The translations under genes and the position numbers were made by a program. The notes beneath the pieces were generated by a model, which ran no database searches, was not told where the DNA came from, and saw only the letters and a program-made list of their open reading frames with translations. Shown piece after piece: positions 4,239 through 13,534 of a stretch of DNA of 15,623 nt (positions within the stretch are counted from its first letter, which is position 1; every line of letters begins with the position of its first letter). This stretch comes from Candidatus Fermentibacterota bacterium (GTDB lineage Bacteria; JAFGKV01): positions 1 to 15,623 of the forward strand of contig JAFGKV010000123.1 in the NCBI GenBank assembly GCA_016928395.1, in the 5' to 3' direction.

Positions 4239-5132
4239 TCATCCTGGCATCTTTCCGCCGCCCAGAGGGGCTGTGCCGATCTCGCTGAGGGCCTGCAATG
4301 GCAAGACGCTTCGTTCGGGCCACGTGAGGACCCCGGTCCTTTCCGCATCGATCCGTGCGAAGCTTCTACGCCGGAGCCAGTCGCCGGGGTTCACCAGCAG
4401 TCCCGGGGCAAGGTCAACGGTCTGGGCGGTATGGGTATGCGCCACCACCACGGTGTCAATCCCTTCTGCGATGCAGCGGCGGGCAAAGGGGATGTAGCGG
4501 TCATTCTTCCACGTGCGTTTGTACTCCGCTGACTGTCGTGAGAGCCGCGACACGCTTCGTGCCAGCCAGAATGCGACTTCAGGGTGAAGGAGCCCGAAGG
4601 CGCGAATGGCCGCGCGGTTGCGTAGCAGGCGTTTGAGCAGGTGATACCCCCGGTCCGATGGGTTGAGCCCGTCACCGTGGGTGAGCATGATGCGTCTGGC
4701 GCCGACATTCCAGATCTCACGCTCCTCGGCGACACGGACGCCGATCTCTCTGGGGAAGAAGTTGCCCAGCCAGAAGTCGTGATTGCCCGGGAACAGGACG
4801 ACGTCCTTGCCTTGGCCGACCAGATCGCGGAGCGCGCACAGGAGCCGGTGGAATCCCCCGGGTACCACGTGGGGATACTCGAACCAGAAATCGAAGATGT
4901 CGCCCAGGAGCACGATGTGGGTCGCGCGCGGCGCTTCGACCGCGAGCATCTCAGCCAACTCATCAACCCGCGCCACTGACTCCTGCGTCGGCAGTTGCGG
5001 AAGATGAAGATCGGAGAAGATGAGGAGTCGGGAGTCGGCAGTCGGCAGTCGGGATATCCCCCCTGCGCGAAAGGGGGAGGCTGAGTCTCGACCTCGACCC
5101 CGGTCATTCGTCGTTGCCGGGCGGGATGTCAT
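4239..5132 (-). CDS. lpxH: UDP-2,3-diacylglucosamine hydrolase-like metallophosphoesterase
   Basis: This is a calcineurin-like metallophosphoesterase of the LpxH family. LpxH cleaves UDP-2,3-diacylglucosamine to lipid X and UMP at the inner membrane in lipid A synthesis. All metal-site blocks are present: SDLHL (D41, H43), LLGDIFDFWF (D78), PGNHDFWLGN (N117, H118), THGDG (H152) and VAHTHTA (H232, H234). The DFWF and GNHDFW context is characteristic of LpxH-type enzymes. The core begins only at about residue 36. Residues 1-35 are encoded by repeat DNA: a palindrome (5058-5078) and a 7-bp tandem (5026-5053). No ATG, GTG or TTG occurs in frame between 5132 and the core, so the extension appears real unless a rare CTG is used. 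The start codon overlaps the DUF559 stop in an ATGA, which suggests translational coupling. A specialised UDP-DAGn role versus another phosphoesterase role cannot be fully separated by eye. Confidence 0.85.
   Translation of the reverse strand: MTSRPATTNDRGRGRDSASPFRAGGISRLPTADSRLLIFSDLHLPQLPTQESVARVDELAEMLAVEAPRATHIVLLGDIFDFWFEYPHVVPGGFHRLLCALRDLVGQGKDVVLFPGNHDFWLGNFFPREIGVRVAEEREIWNVGARRIMLTHGDGLNPSDRGYHLLKRLLRNRAAIRAFGLLHPEVAFWLARSVSRLSRQSAEYKRTWKNDRYIPFARRCIAEGIDTVVVAHTHTAQTVDLAPGLLVNPGDWLRRRSFARIDAERTGVLTWPERSVLPLQALSEIGTAPLGGGKMPG
5026..5053. repeat. Four-copy 7-bp tandem repeat inside the lpxH 5' end
   Basis: Four back-to-back units read AGTCGGG, AGTCGGC, AGTCGGC and AGTCGGG, differing only in the last base. 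On the coding (minus) strand they encode about residues 27-36 of the lpxH product (SRLPTADSRL). Seven is not a multiple of three, so gain or loss of a single copy would shift the lpxH frame. Confidence 0.85.
5058..5078. repeat. GC-rich palindromic element, copy A (short form)
   Basis: CCCCCT (5059-5064) pairs with AGGGGG (5072-5077) around a 7-base loop. It is a shortened relative of the elements at 5197-5233 and 5611-5647, with the same C-run, short loop, G-run architecture. It lies inside the lpxH reading frame, where it encodes the SPFRAGG segment of the N-terminal extension. Confidence 0.6.
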
Positions 5133-5605
5133 GTTCCACCATCCGGCTGTTCACTCGAACCAAAGCATCCCGAATGCGATCTCGAGGCGCCACAAAGTCC
5201 CCCCTTCCAAGAAGGGGGGTGAGGGGGGATTTCTCCCGCGAGGCGTGCCGCCATCGCACGGTGGATAGTCTCCACGACTGCAACAGTGTCCTTAATCACC
5301 TCGGAGCTGTTGAAGCGCATGACCTGCAGCCCGATTCCGGCCAAATACCTGTCGCGTCGAGCATCTCGATTCGCCTGTGCTGGCTCGCCATGCTGTGAAC
5401 CGTCAATCTCGACAACCAGCCTCGCAGCAGGGGCGTAGAAGTCAACAATGTAATCTCCGATTGGCTTCTGACGGTAGAACTGCATGCCATGCAGCTGTTT
5501 CCTCCGAAGTCTGCTCCAGAGGCGTCGCTCACTATCCGTCAGAGTCGCCCTGAGAACCCTGGCCGGCCTCTTGAGCCGTGGTGCGTACCGTATGATCTTC
5601 GTCAT
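5129..5605 (-). CDS. DUF559-domain nuclease (PD-(D/E)XK, Vsr-like)
   Basis: This is a 158-aa protein with a complete DUF559 domain (about residues 10-120), a fold related to Vsr and other PD-(D/E)XK endonucleases. The visible catalytic residues are D55 in YIVDFY, E67 and D69 in VVEIDGSQH, and H72. The N-terminal block TDSERRLWSRLRRKQLHGMQFYRQ is typical of the family. From residue 125 on (EIPPHPPSWKGGL) the protein is encoded by palindromic element copy B, so the last 34 residues are probably not part of the fold. The only purine-rich ribosome-binding-site candidate, AAGGGGGA, lies within element copy C just upstream of the ATG. The gene lies 137 bases downstream of rarA and overlaps the lpxH start by 4 bases. 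The cellular role of such orphan DUF559 proteins is unknown; repair, restriction or mobility of the flanking repeats are possibilities. Confidence 0.88.
   Translation of the reverse strand: MTKIIRYAPRLKRPARVLRATLTDSERRLWSRLRRKQLHGMQFYRQKPIGDYIVDFYAPAARLVVEIDGSQHGEPAQANRDARRDRYLAGIGLQVMRFNSSEVIKDTVAVVETIHRAMAARLAGEIPPHPPSWKGGLCGASRSHSGCFGSSEQPDGGT
5197..5233. repeat. Palindromic element, copy B (right-hand end of the nuclease gene)
   Basis: The outer part is a perfect hairpin, CCCCCCTTC (5199-5207) with GAAGGGGGG (5211-5219) around loop CAA. It is followed by TGA, a second G-run (5223-5228) and the inner end GGGGGGATTTC. Read from outside to inside it matches the reverse complement of copy C at most positions, so B and C form imperfect terminal inverted repeats around the nuclease. 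It lies inside the DUF559 reading frame. Confidence 0.85.
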
Positions 5606-5610
5606 TTCGG

Positions 5611-5647
5611 GAAATCCCCCTTAGTCCCCCTTTGCCAAAGGGGGAGA
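5611..5647. repeat. Palindromic element, copy C (upstream of the nuclease gene)
   Basis: It contains the perfect 9-bp stem TCCCCCTTT (5625-5633) and AAAGGGGGA (5637-5645) with loop GCC. A second C-run and inner end (GAAATCCCCC, 5611-5620) precede it. It is inverted relative to copy B. Its inner end lies five bases from the DUF559 ATG, so its G-run may serve as the ribosome-binding site. Confidence 0.85.
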
Positions 5648-5742
5648 TCCTTGCGCACGCAGCTCGTGCCCATCAGGCTCCATAGCTCAGATCCCCTGAA
5701 CTGTCCCCGACACGCTCTGTCACTCATCTCTCAATCCCGGGC

Positions 5743-7140
5743 TCACTCTCTCTTCTGGGTCTTGGATTTCCCGACCCCGTCGGGTGTTCCGGATTTCCCG
5801 ACCCTGTCCGACGTTTCGGATTTCGGATTTCGTGCTTCGGGTTTCTCTCCGAGCTGCAGCTTCCCTTCCCAGCCCACACTTCTCGGCCTGTAGTACCGGC
5901 GGGGCTTCATGCCGTCGGGCCAGTGCTGTTGGGCAGACGCGGCGTGGGGATCGTCGTGGGCGTAGACATAGCCCTTGCCGTAGCCCAGATCATCCATGAG
6001 GCGCGTCGGGGCATTGCGCAGCACCATGGGAACGGGCAGTGAACCCATAGTGCGGGCGTCTCCCCTTGCCGCGGTCAGCGCAGTGTAGACAGCATTGCTT
6101 TTCGGGGCCAATGCCAAGTACACCACTGCTTGAGCCAGAGCGCAGTCCGCCTCGGGCAGACCGAGAAGTTGCACCGTATGCATCGCGGCAACCGCGACGG
6201 GCAGAGCTTGTGGATGCGCGGTGCCGATATCCTCACTGGCGACCCTGATTAGCCGCCGCGCGATGTACAAAGGGTCCTCGCCCGATTCCACCATCCGGGC
6301 AAGCCAATAGAGCGCCGAGTCGACATCGGAATCACGGATGCACTTGTGCAAGGCCGAAATGATGTTATAGTGCTCCTCGCCTCCTTTGTCATAGAGGAGC
6401 GCCTGCTGCCCGGCTACCTCCCGCACCGAGGCCGGGGTGACTGCCTCGCCGGATCGATTCGTCGCCGCCACCGCCTCCAGTAGATTCAGCCCCTTGCGGA
6501 GATCGCCGTCAGCCAGTTCGGCGATGAGAACGAGGGCCGCGTCACTCCAGCCCGTCGCATCGAGCCCCAAGCCGCGCTCTGTATGGACGAGAGCCCTTCG
6601 AATCACCACCAGGACGTCCTCACTCTCAAGCCGCTTCAGGGGGTACACCGTGCAGCGGGAGAGGAGCGGGCCGACGAGCTGGAATGACGGGTTCTCCGTG
6701 GTGGCGCCGATGAGCTGAAGCGTGCCGTCTTCCACATGGGGGAGCAACCCGTCCTGCTGGGTTTTGTTGAAGCGGTGAATCTCATCCACGAAGAGGATGG
6801 TCCGGCGGCCACTTCGCGCCAGAGCGTGCCTCGCTTGGGAGACGACGATTCGCAGCTCGGGAAGTCCCGACGTGACGGCACTGAATGCAAGGAATCGTTT
6901 CGAGGTGTACCGCGCGACGACTGACGCCAGCGACGTCTTGCCGCACCCGGGTGGGCCCCACAAGATAACCGATCCCAGGGTGTCCTCCTCCAATGCACGG
7001 CGGAACGCCGCGCCCGGCAGTAGGAGATGCCCCTGCCCCACGACTTCGTCGAGATTCACCGGCCTCATGCGGTGGGCCAACGGCGCATCCGCCGGTGGTG
7101 TCTCAGCGATATCAAGTTCAAAAAGGTCTAGCTGCTCCAT
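5743..7140 (-). CDS. rarA: RarA/MgsA, replication-associated recombination AAA+ ATPase
   Basis: RarA is a clamp-loader-like AAA+ ATPase that acts at stalled replication forks and in recombination. I chose the ATG at 7140 (465 aa) because the family N-terminus (MEQLDLFE, then PLAHRMRPVNLDEVVGQ) begins there and a GAGGAAG stretch precedes it; the frame extends 55 codons further upstream without similarity. Visible motifs are Walker A GPPGCGKTS (62-70), Walker B FVDEIHRFN (117-125), sensor 1 GATTENPSF (145-153), and R162 in LLSRC as arginine finger. The C-terminal MgsA tetramerisation region includes KSNAVYTALTAAR and YGKGYVYAHD. The usual protein ends near GWEGKLQ. The last 32 residues (434-465) are a low-complexity, charged tail encoded by repeats at 5764-5832. 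It is the first gene of the leftward cluster and is divergent from the TonB-receptor gene. Confidence 0.95.
   Translation of the reverse strand: MEQLDLFELDIAETPPADAPLAHRMRPVNLDEVVGQGHLLLPGAAFRRALEEDTLGSVILWGPPGCGKTSLASVVARYTSKRFLAFSAVTSGLPELRIVVSQARHALARSGRRTILFVDEIHRFNKTQQDGLLPHVEDGTLQLIGATTENPSFQLVGPLLSRCTVYPLKRLESEDVLVVIRRALVHTERGLGLDATGWSDAALVLIAELADGDLRKGLNLLEAVAATNRSGEAVTPASVREVAGQQALLYDKGGEEHYNIISALHKCIRDSDVDSALYWLARMVESGEDPLYIARRLIRVASEDIGTAHPQALPVAVAAMHTVQLLGLPEADCALAQAVVYLALAPKSNAVYTALTAARGDARTMGSLPVPMVLRNAPTRLMDDLGYGKGYVYAHDDPHAASAQQHWPDGMKPRRYYRPRSVGWEGKLQLGEKPEARNPKSETSDRVGKSGTPDGVGKSKTQKRE
5764..5832. repeat. Degenerate tandem repeats encoding the RarA tail
   Basis: GGATTTCCCGACCCCGT (5764-5780) recurs as GGATTTCCCGACCCTGT (5791-5807), a 27-bp period with one mismatch. 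This is followed by TTTCGGA twice and TTTCG (5814-5832). On the coding strand the last part reads as a GAAATCC tandem, a string type common in intergenic repeats of several environmental phyla. The 27-bp period keeps the frame and yields the repeated VGKS peptide. Confidence 0.8.
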
Positions 7141-7707: not shown

Positions 7708-10700
7708 ATGCGACACGGAGGGCTCCTCACCACCTTGCTGCTATTCTGCGTTATGCCGGCGCTTGTGTTCGCCGGCACAACCGGGAAGGTGGCGGGCATG
7801 GTGTCCGATGCCAGTACCGGCAAGCCGCTTGCCTACGTGAACATCATGATCGAGGGCACGACGCTCGGTCAGGCAACGGATGAGACCGGGGAGTTCAACA
7901 TCATCGGCGTTCCCGCCGGATCGTGGAGTGTGCGTGCCTCCATGATCGGCTACGCCGACCAAGTGGAACAGAGCGTTCCCGTCTCGGTCGATCTCACGAC
8001 CAAAGTCGACTTCGCGCTCTCCCCCAAGGCGCTCGTGGTGGGGGACGAGATCGTCGTTGTGGCGGAGCGTCGGCTGATCAGGCCAGACGAGACGCAGAGT
8101 ATGCGAACGACCTCGCGGGAAGATCTTGCCATCCTTCCCGTGACCACCATGCAGGACGTGCTCACCAAGAGCACCAGCACGGCGGGAACGGGCAACAATC
8201 TCCACGTTCGTGGCGGTCGAGCCGGTGAGGCAACCGTGCTGGTCGACGGAATGACCATCTCGGAGCCACAGTATCGGACAAACAATCTCGAGGTCGGCCG
8301 CGAGGCTCTGGCCGAGATGCAGATGTTGACCGGTGGCTTCAATGCCGAGTACGGAGACGCGCAATCCGGCATCATCATCGTCACGACCCGTGAAGGCACG
8401 CCCGAGTCGTACTCCGGCAAGATCATGTATCAGACCGACGACATCGCAGACAACGGCCTGACGCCAGCCAGCACCAATTACGACTACATGGAGTTCAGCA
8501 TTGGCGGCCCCGAGCCCATCACCAGCAAGCTTCTCCCGCAACTGGGCGTGAAGATCCCGGGGAACCTGACCATGTTTCTCCAGGGCGACGTGACGTTCAC
8601 CGATCGCCAGGCCTTCCACCAGGATGCCTTCGACAGCAGCGCCATTCGCCTCTCGTCGGAGCAGTGGCGGTGGTGGAATGATCACAATTCCTCCGCGCCG
8701 AATCTGGAGCCTGCCATATCCCGCGAGTTGGGGACTTCCGACCAGTTCAGGTCAGCCAATATCCTGGATGATCTTTTCGGCGTCGGCAAGAGGGAGCGGA
8801 ACTGGCAGAACGGCAATATCAAGCTGAGCTACTCCCCAAGCCCGACCTACAACCTGGCCTTCAGCAGCCGATGGAGCAACAAGGACCGCAACTTCTGGCA
8901 TGCCAGCCAGGGCAATGATCTGCGAAAGATGATCCCCATGGCCCAGGCTCTGGGCATTGATGACGGCATCGACAATGACGGTGACGGCCTCATCGACGAG
9001 GAAGTCTTCAACGGTATCGACGATGACGGAGACGGCTACGTCGACGAACTCGACGGTACGCTGATCGATCCGGCCACCTACCTCGGCGGCAGCTTGGGCG
9101 GTATGGACCTCAGTTGGGGCGTTGACCGCGACGGCGACGACCGCATCGACGAAGAGGCCTGGAACGGGATCGATGACGACGGTGATGGCCTGATCGACGA
9201 AGATCTCCAGCCGGACATCTTCCAGGGCCAATACTACAATGGCTGGGATTTCATGTTTACCCAGAAGAACGAGGATAACCAGCAACTGCTGACATGGAAG
9301 CACGTCGTCGGCAGGTCGACCTTCTACGAGGTCAAGCTCTCCCGTCTGCGGAACATGCAAGCCTGGATGCCCAAACGCGGGCAAGACGGAGAATCCGCAT
9401 CGGATATCGACGAGATCCGCGGCTGGCTTGACGACTACGAGGCCTACCGCGTCGCATACGCGGAGTACCTGCGCCTCCTTGATGCCGGCGACACGACGGC
9501 GGTCAGGCCGACCTCGCCAGATCCGTATCTGGGCATGGGCTATGTCCAGGAGCCGTATACTGACACGAACGGCAACTACCGGTATGACCTTGGAGAGCCT
9601 TTCGAGGATCTCGACGGTGACGGCATGTGGGACTTCTTCAATGCCTCGGGCGCGAACCGAACCTTGTGGTTCAGCGGCCAGAATCACCCGTTCAGGGGTC
9701 TCTGCTACTACGGAGTATCAGGGTACACCACCGGTGATGATCCTAGCTTCTACCGTTCGGGCGTGAACTACCGCGAATCCAAAACGTGGACACTGAAGGC
9801 AGATGTCACGAGCCAGATCGCCCGGAATCACATGCTCAAGGCAGGCATCGAGGGAAAGACCTACGACCTCCAGAACTGGAGCCGGCAGCTTCTGGCCGGA
9901 GACAACGGCGAAGGCTTGTTCGGCAATGATTATCACTTCAAGCCTCAGGCCGCAGCGGCCTATGTCCAAGACAAGATGGAGTACCAGAGCGCCATCGTGA
10001 ACATGGGGCTTCGTTTTGACTACTTCAGCCAGGGTGACAATGTGGACCCGTTGCCGCTTGACGCGGGGTCGAGTATCGCCCGTCGCGGCGAGGAAACTCC
10101 CGAGCCATCCTTCAGCCTTCTGCCTCGCTTTGGGATCAGCTTCCCGGTCACCGAACGCGACGTGTTCCACTTCTTCTACGGGCACTTCTTCCAACAGCCC
10201 CTGCTCTTCAATGTGTTCAACAAGGTTAACCAGGCCATCTCGAGTTCGAATGACATCATTGGCAACCCCTATCTCGAGCCTGAGAAGACCATCAGCTACG
10301 AATTCGGGATCAAGCACCAGTTCGGGATCAATTCGTTGGCAACCGTGACGGCCTTCTTCAAGGATGTCGACAATCTCGTACAGATTGACCGGATTTTCGA
10401 GGGTGCGCCGACTAACATGGTCTATCACACGTATGTGAACAGCACATACGGAACGGTTCGCGGATTCGAGGTCACCGCGTCGCAGCGGGATCTCTACAAC
10501 TTCAGCGGAGAGGTGAGCTACACCTACCAGATCGCCACCACGACGCACTCCACCTCGTATGACACGTACACCGGGTACGAGCAGTTCCAACTGCTGCCCG
10601 GCAAAGAGTACCCGGCGGATTGGGATCGGCGGCATAGCGTCACCTTCAACCTGAGCTACGGCCTGGGTTCCGGCGAGGGTCCCTCCATCGGTGGAATCAA

Positions 10701-11140: not shown

Positions 11141-13534
11141 ATGAGAAGGACACACATGCTCGCGGTATGGGCAGCGCTGGCTGCCGTGTGCCTGAGCTTG
11201 GCCGTCCCTCCCCGGGCGATCGCGGCACGGTCTGAGGACGCCGTCATGGAGGCGTTCCAGGCGCCGGCGCTCATCGCCGAGAGGAGGTTCGCCAATCACG
11301 TCAAAGGTCTTCAATGGATGGGCATGTCCAACAAGGGAGAGTGGGGCAACCCTGACGGACTCCCGATCTCGCTGTATGAGCTGGAGTACCCGGGTGGAAG
11401 CGGCACGGTCTTCCTGTTCTCGGGCGGCGTCTGGGTAGGCGCCGTCAAGAACGGGGTGCCGATTGTATCCACCGCCACCGATGGCAACAATGGGACAGGC
11501 GAGTACGGCGGCCTCGACTTCGCAACGCCCGCAGACCAGCAGACCGACACCAGAAGCGTCGGATGGCTGGAAAAGACCAAGGATGCCGTGACCGATGCCG
11601 CGGTACTTGATGCGTTTCGCGCCGGGCGCTATCTGGGCAAGGGCGTCAAGGAGAAGGATGACGACGGAGACTGGAACGTCGAGGATGACGTCAACGGCGA
11701 CGGCAAGCCCAGTGCCGACTTCGATGGCCGACCCGGGATCGACGATGATGGAGACGGCGCCATCGACGAGGAGATCCTGAACGGCATCGATGACGATGGC
11801 GACGGCCTCATTGATGAGGATGTCGGCTCCATCGACGAAGCCTGGGTCATGGCCAATGCCGAGGTGCTTGACTACCTCTGCGATGATGGGACACGGATCA
11901 CCGCCGGCGATGCCAACGGCGACGGCGTCTTTGACTATGATCCCGAGACCCACATCGACGAGGATCCTGCGGGCGATATCTCCAACGACTTCCTGGACAA
12001 CGACCATGACGGCCTGTTCGACATGGACGATCCCGACTATGACGGCGATATGGTTGTCGAGAGTCTGGATGATGATGGCGACGGCCTCTTCGATGAGGAT
12101 GATCTGGCCCGGGCAGGCCAGGAGTTCATCGTCGCCTACGCGGATACCTGTGAACGGTGCGTCGAGGATGCCGACACCGATGGGTTCACTCCCCTGGGCG
12201 TTCGCGTCGTGCAGCATACCTACCAGTGGTCTGAAACCTATGCCGATGACTTCATCCTCATGGACTTTGAGATCACCAACATAGGGAACTCCCTCCTGGA
12301 AGGCGTCTGTGTGGGGACGTTCTTCGACTTCGACATCGGCCATGTGACCCAGGAAGGCGGGGCACGTTCGGAAGACGATGTCACTTCCTACGTGGATTCC
12401 CTGCAGCTTGCCATCGGCGGCGACAACGACGGCGACAATGGCCTGCTCGAGGCGCAGTTCTTCGGCGTCCGGGTCATTCAGACACCGTTGCCAGACGTGG
12501 GGGCGACCTACCGGAATTTCGATCGACTGACCGGTGGCGATCCTCCTGACAATGCAGCCAAGTACGAGCTCATGGCTTCCGGCGCCCGTGACCCGGATAA
12601 TGACACCCCCGGCGACTGGCGCTTCGTGTTGGCGTTTGGCCCCTTGGGCAACCTCCCGCCGGGGCAAACGCTTCCGGTCACCGTAGCCATCGTCAACGGG
12701 TTCGACATGGCGCAGATCGTGGTCAACGCCCGCCAAGCCAAGGCCATGTTCGATGCTGACTTCCGTGGCCCGTCATCCCCTGACTCTCCCGTGTTCACGG
12801 CACAGGCCGTCAATCGGGGCGCCACGATCGTATGGAAGGACAATGCCGAAGCCAGCGTTGACCCCATCTCCCAATACATGGATTTCCAGGGCTACAGTAT
12901 CTGGAGATCGCCGGAAGGGCTGACCTGGACCCGCGTCGCAACCTGGGACTTGCCCGACACCATCGGCCTGAACATAGGATGGCCGCCTCCGGCCTCCACT
13001 GTTGAGGGCTTCCTGTACCAGTATGAGGATGTCGGCTTGGCCAATGGCTTCCCGTACAGGTATGTGGTGACCGCCTTCGATGACGGCGGCAATGGCGACG
13101 GCATCAACAATCCTCAGTGGGACGAGCGGAACAGCGGGGTCGGCGTGTTGGAATCCAGCCGTGGCGTGGATCTCCAGCAGGTCGTGTATCCCGCGGTTGC
13201 GGCGGGCGCGGCGGATGATGTGAGCGGCGTGTTCGTCGTGCCGAATCCCTATATCGGATCGTCGCGCCTCGAGCAAGTGGCCCGGACCGACGAGGCTGGC
13301 GTGCGTCAGTACTACAAGGATATCGAGTTCCGAGGACTCCCCGGCGAGTGTGACATACAGATCTTCACGCTGTCCGGCGACCTCGTGCAAGAGATCCACC
13401 ATGACAGCGGTCTTTCGTGGTACGCCTGGAATCTGCGAACCAACAGGAACCAGGAGATCGCCGCGGGGATCTATGTCTACCGCGTTTCCCGCGGCGGTAA
13501 TGAGACCGTCGGCAAGTTCATCGTCGTGAAGTAG
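11141..13534 (+). CDS. Secreted Asp-repeat protein with FlgD-Ig/type-IX-like C-terminal domain
   Basis: This is a 797-aa exported protein of unknown function. The ATG at 11141 follows a purine-rich GAGAGAGG stretch and opens a signal peptide ending near AIA (residue 28). Residues 171-229 and 257-322 are Asp/Gly-rich repeats (GIDDDGDGAIDEE, NGIDDDGDGLIDED, DANGDGVFD, LDDDGDGLFDEDD), like thrombospondin type-3 or dockerin calcium loops. The middle region is beta-rich and includes an Ig/FN3-like segment at about 545-650 (FTAQAVNRGATIVWKDN, GYSIWRSPEG). The C-terminus (about 700-797) has the FlgD-Ig/type-IX sorting pattern: VVPNPYIGSS, IQIFTLSGDLVQEI, NLRTNRNQEIAAGIYVYRV, VGKFIVVK. In FCB bacteria such ends often direct type IX secretion and surface attachment. 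The following gene encodes a PorV/PorQ-type barrel, which fits. I infer a calcium-stabilised surface protein; no enzyme motif is visible. Confidence 0.8.
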   Translation: MRRTHMLAVWAALAAVCLSLAVPPRAIAARSEDAVMEAFQAPALIAERRFANHVKGLQWMGMSNKGEWGNPDGLPISLYELEYPGGSGTVFLFSGGVWVGAVKNGVPIVSTATDGNNGTGEYGGLDFATPADQQTDTRSVGWLEKTKDAVTDAAVLDAFRAGRYLGKGVKEKDDDGDWNVEDDVNGDGKPSADFDGRPGIDDDGDGAIDEEILNGIDDDGDGLIDEDVGSIDEAWVMANAEVLDYLCDDGTRITAGDANGDGVFDYDPETHIDEDPAGDISNDFLDNDHDGLFDMDDPDYDGDMVVESLDDDGDGLFDEDDLARAGQEFIVAYADTCERCVEDADTDGFTPLGVRVVQHTYQWSETYADDFILMDFEITNIGNSLLEGVCVGTFFDFDIGHVTQEGGARSEDDVTSYVDSLQLAIGGDNDGDNGLLEAQFFGVRVIQTPLPDVGATYRNFDRLTGGDPPDNAAKYELMASGARDPDNDTPGDWRFVLAFGPLGNLPPGQTLPVTVAIVNGFDMAQIVVNARQAKAMFDADFRGPSSPDSPVFTAQAVNRGATIVWKDNAEASVDPISQYMDFQGYSIWRSPEGLTWTRVATWDLPDTIGLNIGWPPPASTVEGFLYQYEDVGLANGFPYRYVVTAFDDGGNGDGINNPQWDERNSGVGVLESSRGVDLQQVVYPAVAAGAADDVSGVFVVPNPYIGSSRLEQVARTDEAGVRQYYKDIEFRGLPGECDIQIFTLSGDLVQEIHHDSGLSWYAWNLRTNRNQEIAAGIYVYRVSRGGNETVGKFIVVK

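Follow-up and report, generated by a model that had tools for sequence, protein, structure and literature searches.

DUF559 endonuclease genes between inverted hairpin elements: evidence for a probable REP/RAYT-like mobile unit with a homing-type nuclease

One of the closest described parallels to the locus studied here is the REP/REPIN-RAYT system, in which short hairpins tagged on one side flank an enzyme gene, the enzyme is matched to the type of element, and non-autonomous copies occur in pairs, singly and within genes (PMC3733652, PMC3116915). The DUF559 units resemble this system in each of these respects. The RAYT enzyme, however, is a Y1 (HUH tyrosine) transposase, whereas DUF559 is an unrelated Vsr/EDxHD nuclease, and in place of the GTAG/CGTC tag we find a G-rich tail. 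With the EDxHD homing endonuclease I-Bth0305I the units share sequence homology, fold and the insertion of one gene into another, but DUF559 is a stand-alone domain of ~100 aa with no long DNA-binding extension, and it is bounded by its own hairpins outside any intron or intein. A DUF559 gene of Thermosynechococcus has been assigned to the EDxHD family (PMC9403480). The Caulobacter protein VsrA, also a DUF559 protein, causes a DNA-damage response when the cognate cytosine methylation is lost, and hairpin boxes are not mentioned for it in the matching passages of the source (PMC12907096).

We analysed a window of 15,623 nucleotides from a Candidatus Fermentibacterota bacterium (the whole of contig JAFGKV010000123.1). 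It carries trmFO, xerC, a 457-aa reading frame for which no NCBIfam match was found, an lpxH-like gene, the DUF559 gene, rarA and genes for a TonB-type receptor, a large T9SS-tail-like protein (the match to the tail is weak) and a PorV/PorQ-family protein. The DUF559 gene and both of its elements are placed between lpxH and rarA (Table 1). A search of positions 4900-5900 against Rfam gave no match. The rarA-lpxH junction was sought in two relatives: the genome from the same genus has no true rarA and no lpxH match, and the genome from the same family has no true rarA and its lpxH lies at a contig edge. Other repeats in the window are a 27-bp tandem repeat (5764-5817), at which the rarA reading frame has its 3' end, and DxDGDG-like Asp-rich stretches in the TonB-type receptor and the T9SS-tail-like protein (8960-9200 and 11657-12100).

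Table 1. Coordinates of the features at the DUF559 locus of the window
Feature	Position	Strand	Basis
DUF559 (PF04480) Vsr/EDxHD-type endonuclease gene, 158 aa, ATG at 5605	5129..5605	-	profile match, conserved residues, fold
Upstream hairpin element TCTCCCCCTTTGGCAAAGGGGGACTAAGGGGGATTTC, tail toward the gene, end 5 nt before the ATG	5611..5647	-	
Downstream hairpin element GTCCCCCCTTCCAAGAAGGGGGGTGAGGGGGGATTTC, inverted, in frame, encodes the protein tail from ~residue 125	5197..5233	+	
Entire unit element-DUF559-element, 451 bp	5197..5647	.	
Incomplete third hairpin CCCCCCTGCGCGAAAGGGGG, similar in type but lacking the G-rich tail repeat	5057..5079	+	weak fold, z 0.26

The original prediction of two inverted 37-bp elements around a 451-bp unit was borne out. 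The two elements form the longest inverted repeat of the window, with 34-nt arms that are 74% complementary, and each consists of a 9-bp hairpin, a short spacer and an unpaired G-rich tail that points into the gene. Their folding energies are -10.1 and -8.6 kcal/mol. For the two elements 16/200 and 3/200 shuffled sequences folded equally well, and the hairpin alone is therefore modest evidence. A search of the 4.8-Mb draft genome gave 12 matches to the shared pattern CCCCCT-N-AGGGGG-N-GGGGGATT and none to the reversed pattern used as a control; after the arm the window elements read ACTAAGGGGGATTT and TGAGGGGGGATTT. The third hairpin, which had not been predicted, lies in the lpxH reading frame, in its N-terminal region. 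The AAGGGGG run of the upstream element ends ~10 nt before the ATG, and the element is a plausible ribosome-binding site at this locus. Some other DUF559 loci have separate Shine-Dalgarno-like stretches, and we rejected a general role of this kind because the spacing between element and gene varies widely among loci. The downstream element was predicted to supply the C-terminus of the nuclease. This holds in the window, where the encoded tail lies beyond the folded domain (ending at residue 122), but not as a universal rule, as such an extension was found at 31 of 48 boxed loci. The second DUF559 gene of the same genome (L001) has a different box of the same anatomy, with a CTCTCC hairpin and a GGGGTGAGGG tail. 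At its 3' end this gene is also adjoined by a hairpin from a different repeat family (CTGGATTCCCGC..GCGGGAATGAC).

The window protein matches PF04480 with an E-value of 3e-34. Its residues E26, D55, E66, D68, H72, D81 and R97 are conserved, the first five being invariant in 20 DUF559 sequences, and the active site of the endonuclease is intact. A profile built from the 20 domains matched PDB 3hrl (NGO0050) with E 2e-33 and 3r3p, the catalytic domain of I-Bth0305I, with E 9e-6. The AlphaFold2 model has a mean pLDDT of 78; most of residues 21-122 exceed 90, and the element-encoded tail is modelled with low confidence (near 50). Aligned to known structures, the model scored Z 16.2 with 3hrl, 13.1 with 3r3p and 11.5 and 10.8 with Vsr. 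The rank of Vsr alone is not decisive because the next matches, two mitochondrial-ribosome entries, reach 10.6 and 10.3. The sequence match to 3r3p is a firmer link than the Vsr fold rank, and the modelled enzyme is predicted to fold like both I-Bth0305I and Vsr.

We searched a sample of 290 genomes with PF04480, obtained a match in 97 and took the stretches around the stronger hits. Each upstream flank was compared to the reverse-complemented downstream flank, and a locus was counted as boxed at an inverted-repeat (IR) score of at least 32. This score was reached by 47 of the 82 DUF559 loci (the other 35 lie below it) compared to 2 of 130 other ORFs in the same stretches (Fisher p 4e-22) and 47 of 820 mismatched flank pairs. 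Rank tests on the scores gave p 2e-18 and 3e-23. All these p-values are optimistic because loci from one genome are not independent. The thresholds, flank widths and type patterns were picked after the data were seen, without correction; as the contrasts are large, we do not think that this choice decides the result. A protein scan of the contig collection yielded only one relative. We also considered ycjD, an unboxed DUF559 gene of E. coli, for a population test, which was uninformative: two strains that lack ycjD carry an unrelated efflux operon and a regulator beside fabI.

The boxes have a common anatomy of a C-rich arm, a loop, a G-rich arm, a short spacer and a G-rich tail similar to the 3' arm. 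The consensus of the spacer is (A)YYR or, in longer form, (A)YYRGG; 59 of 107 spacers begin with YYR, against an assumed expectation of 1/4, and the spacer often reads T-R-GG. Among the listed junctions GTAG stands at the start of the tail in L069 only. Boxed units have a median length of 468 bp (10-90% range 420-575); the window unit has 451 bp. The units on cyanobacterial plasmids show the same anatomy, and in S. meliloti the box around locus L142 is a repeated sequence, with 39 places in its record that match the query region. In a minority of cases the tail is on the outer side (L121, L094 and the Synechocystis units). Some loci have a second stem-loop in place of the spacer and keep hairpin and tail (L072, L108, L120 and L076), which suggests that the folded form matters. 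G-quadruplex formation, considered for some tails, was set aside, as type A has no four separate G-runs.

We then asked how the element type of the window, element A, is distributed over genomes. Of the 55 genomes with a strong DUF559 match 21 contain it, compared to 14 of the 235 others (OR 9.75, p 6e-9); these genome-level statistics ignore kinship, and most of the genomes come from different families. Together with the contrast between DUF559 loci and other ORFs, this bears out the predicted statistical tie between elements and DUF559 genes. At least 15 elements lie within 400 bp of a DUF559 gene where ~0.9 would be expected. On viral contigs none of 95 elements was near a DUF559 gene (80 loci with an element).

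RAYTs use a similar boxed anatomy (PMC3733652, PMC3116915), and the hairpins could be ordinary REP-like repeats moved by a RAYT or some other transposase, with DUF559 as a trapped passenger. A weak association of element A with Y1_Tnp genes (OR 4.0, p 0.0016) agrees with this, as do genomes that are rich in the element without a strong DUF559: no strong DUF559 match was obtained in 14 of the 35 genomes with element A, among them G002 with 29 copies (98% complete), G189 with 65 and G026 with 15. However, none of 20 loci of Y1 transposases (RAYT-type) in genomes with element A carried it, up to 4.3 kb being checked, compared to 10 of 90 DUF559 loci that have it within 400 bp. The association with DUF559 also persists within Y1-negative genomes (OR 15.7, p 0.0035), other genes are boxed in only the two cases given above, and the match between enzyme and element described below is not expected of a passenger. 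We consider it unlikely that the nuclease is a passenger. In a separate, crude motif scan ATTCCCGC/CGTC-type repeats were paired with GIY-YIG genes in 0 of 30 cases, and this candidate was dropped.

That the element type follows the enzyme was supported by comparing protein identity with element similarity between genomes (Mantel rho 0.27, permutation p 0.0005; rho 0.27, p 0.001 with GC controlled), and the general matching claim rests on these tests. In a maximum-likelihood tree of 78 DUF559 domains the nine enzymes boxed by type A, from six genomes (one each in G000, G173, G250 and G227, two in G033 and three in G118), form one clade with support 98/86. None of 500 shuffles gave a value as low, a result inflated by near-copies within G118 and G033. 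The enzymes with elements of types B and C are scattered on the tree rather than forming single clades, so a strict relation of one clade to one element holds for A only. G000 and G227 each encode two DUF559 enzymes that fall in different parts of the tree and have different boxes. The comparison supports the view that the box sequence follows the enzyme family.

That units should be present or absent as blocks was largely supported, in three ways. The first is the extent of blocks shared within a genome. In G262 (L072/L108) the block ends at or near the hairpins on both sides, in G269 (L074/L077) on the upstream side and in G118 (L104/L118) on the downstream side; in G007 and G003 shared blocks reach beyond the elements. 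Beyond their hairpins, the units of G118 (L063, L104, L118 and L126) have additional ends, GGTAGTGTCAAA / TTTGACA-TACC, as though they were nested in a larger element. The second is the interruption of methylase genes. In Synechocystis sp. B12 a plasmid-borne DUF1156 methylase gene is split by a unit (L138) that is not present in four homologues of the gene, all uninterrupted (in Planktothrix, Nostoc, Geminocystis and Calothrix), although the empty site is not exact because the insertion replaced a variable linker. Boxed DUF559 domains are also found in frame inside Eco57I-type methylases (L064, L120 and L362). The third is the set of states at one position in PglX. It contains a unit on a Synechocystis sp. 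B12 plasmid (L139), is element-free in Planktothrix (L155, L356) and Oscillatoria (L355), and holds an in-frame element pair without a nuclease in Pseudanabaena (L154). Pseudanabaena has a second in-frame pair, where Synechocystis carries no element. DDE-type insertion sequences have terminal inverted repeats and a target-site duplication; the unit has inverted ends, no duplication is visible at the window unit, and none was seen by eye in the unit copies displayed.

A homing gene that cleaves an empty allele and is copied into it could account for the three states at PglX (empty, pair and unit). In a classical homing scheme the elements came first, as recognition sites, and the gene was copied into gene-less pairs by double-strand-break repair. 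By both sequence and fold, the nearest relative that has been characterised is a homing endonuclease, and the same PglX position holds a gene-less pair in one relative and the gene between the elements in another. Loss of the ORF from a unit could explain these two states equally, and L108 in G262 does look like an internal deletion of a unit. Homing alone would also leave the arrival of elements and units at element-free sites unexplained. Homing as the whole explanation is possible, but we regard it with some doubt; spread into pre-existing pairs and insertion into new sites both appear to fit the PglX states.

DUF559 domains that are embedded in long reading frames or split a gene lie mostly in DNA methyltransferase genes (L064, L120, L362, L138, L139 and L103; Eco57I, PglX, DUF1156 and N6_N4_Mtase). 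The location of several units within methylase genes would also suit a host repair or defence nuclease of the Vsr type, with the hairpins flanking a mobile gene purely as terminators or regulatory signals. The response described for Caulobacter VsrA (PMC12907096) and a weak similarity to DpdF reported by PADLOC point the same way. Inverted copies with tails on either side of the gene, sequences matched to the enzyme, and paired and solitary copies elsewhere are not expected of such a nuclease, and in E. coli ycjD is a resident DUF559 gene without boxes. A host function with incidental hairpins appears improbable to us.

The unit is probably a compact mobile element in which a Vsr/EDxHD-type nuclease is bounded by two inverted cognate hairpin elements. 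From the sequence comparisons, the association of the box with DUF559 and past mobility as a unit are well supported, while hairpin cleavage and the mechanism of mobility are what we infer. E. coli Vsr acts at CTAGG-type sites. Given the frequent T-R-GG of the spacer, we propose that the DUF559 enzyme recognises the junction between hairpin and tail of its own element and would nick or cut there. Host repair or replication may then copy the unit, or an element pair without an ORF, into new sites, some of them intragenic. Elements are found also as ORF-less pairs and solitary copies; these would be to the unit what REPINs are to RAYTs, namely non-autonomous derivatives. The original proposal, a mobile unit of repeats plus enzyme that resembles REP/RAYT but has a PD-(D/E)XK enzyme, is supported by the association at gene and genome level, the matching and the block behaviour, and our best reading is a cognate pair of the REP/RAYT kind with a homing-type nuclease as its driving enzyme.

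The boxes at the S. meliloti locus and on the cyanobacterial plasmids may be compared with the RIME-type repeats of Rhizobium and the small dispersed repeats of cyanobacteria, respectively. We found no paper that links either of these to a dedicated enzyme or DUF559 to palindromic repeats, in a literature search from which most subscription papers and all bioRxiv preprints were absent, and priority for the link is accordingly not proven.

The widespread DUF559 family is listed as one of 'unknown function', and many bacterial families carry G-tailed hairpin repeats to which no enzyme has been assigned. The results suggest that the boxed DUF559 gene is a widespread selfish mobile unit, which would be the origin of a common class of bacterial repeats. 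We lean slightly towards the wider view that G-tailed hairpin repeats form a large, unrecognised superfamily across bacteria and have DUF559 endonucleases as their dedicated mobilising enzymes, with a homing-type PD-(D/E)XK nuclease acting alone, in parallel and unrelated to REP/RAYT. The matching gives predictions for enzyme pairs within one genome, as in G000 and G227 with two enzymes and two box types each. If the pairing is right, it would provide a function for the DUF559 family and an origin for the G-tailed repeats, and a second enzyme lineage would have to be considered in explaining the spread of REP-like sequences.
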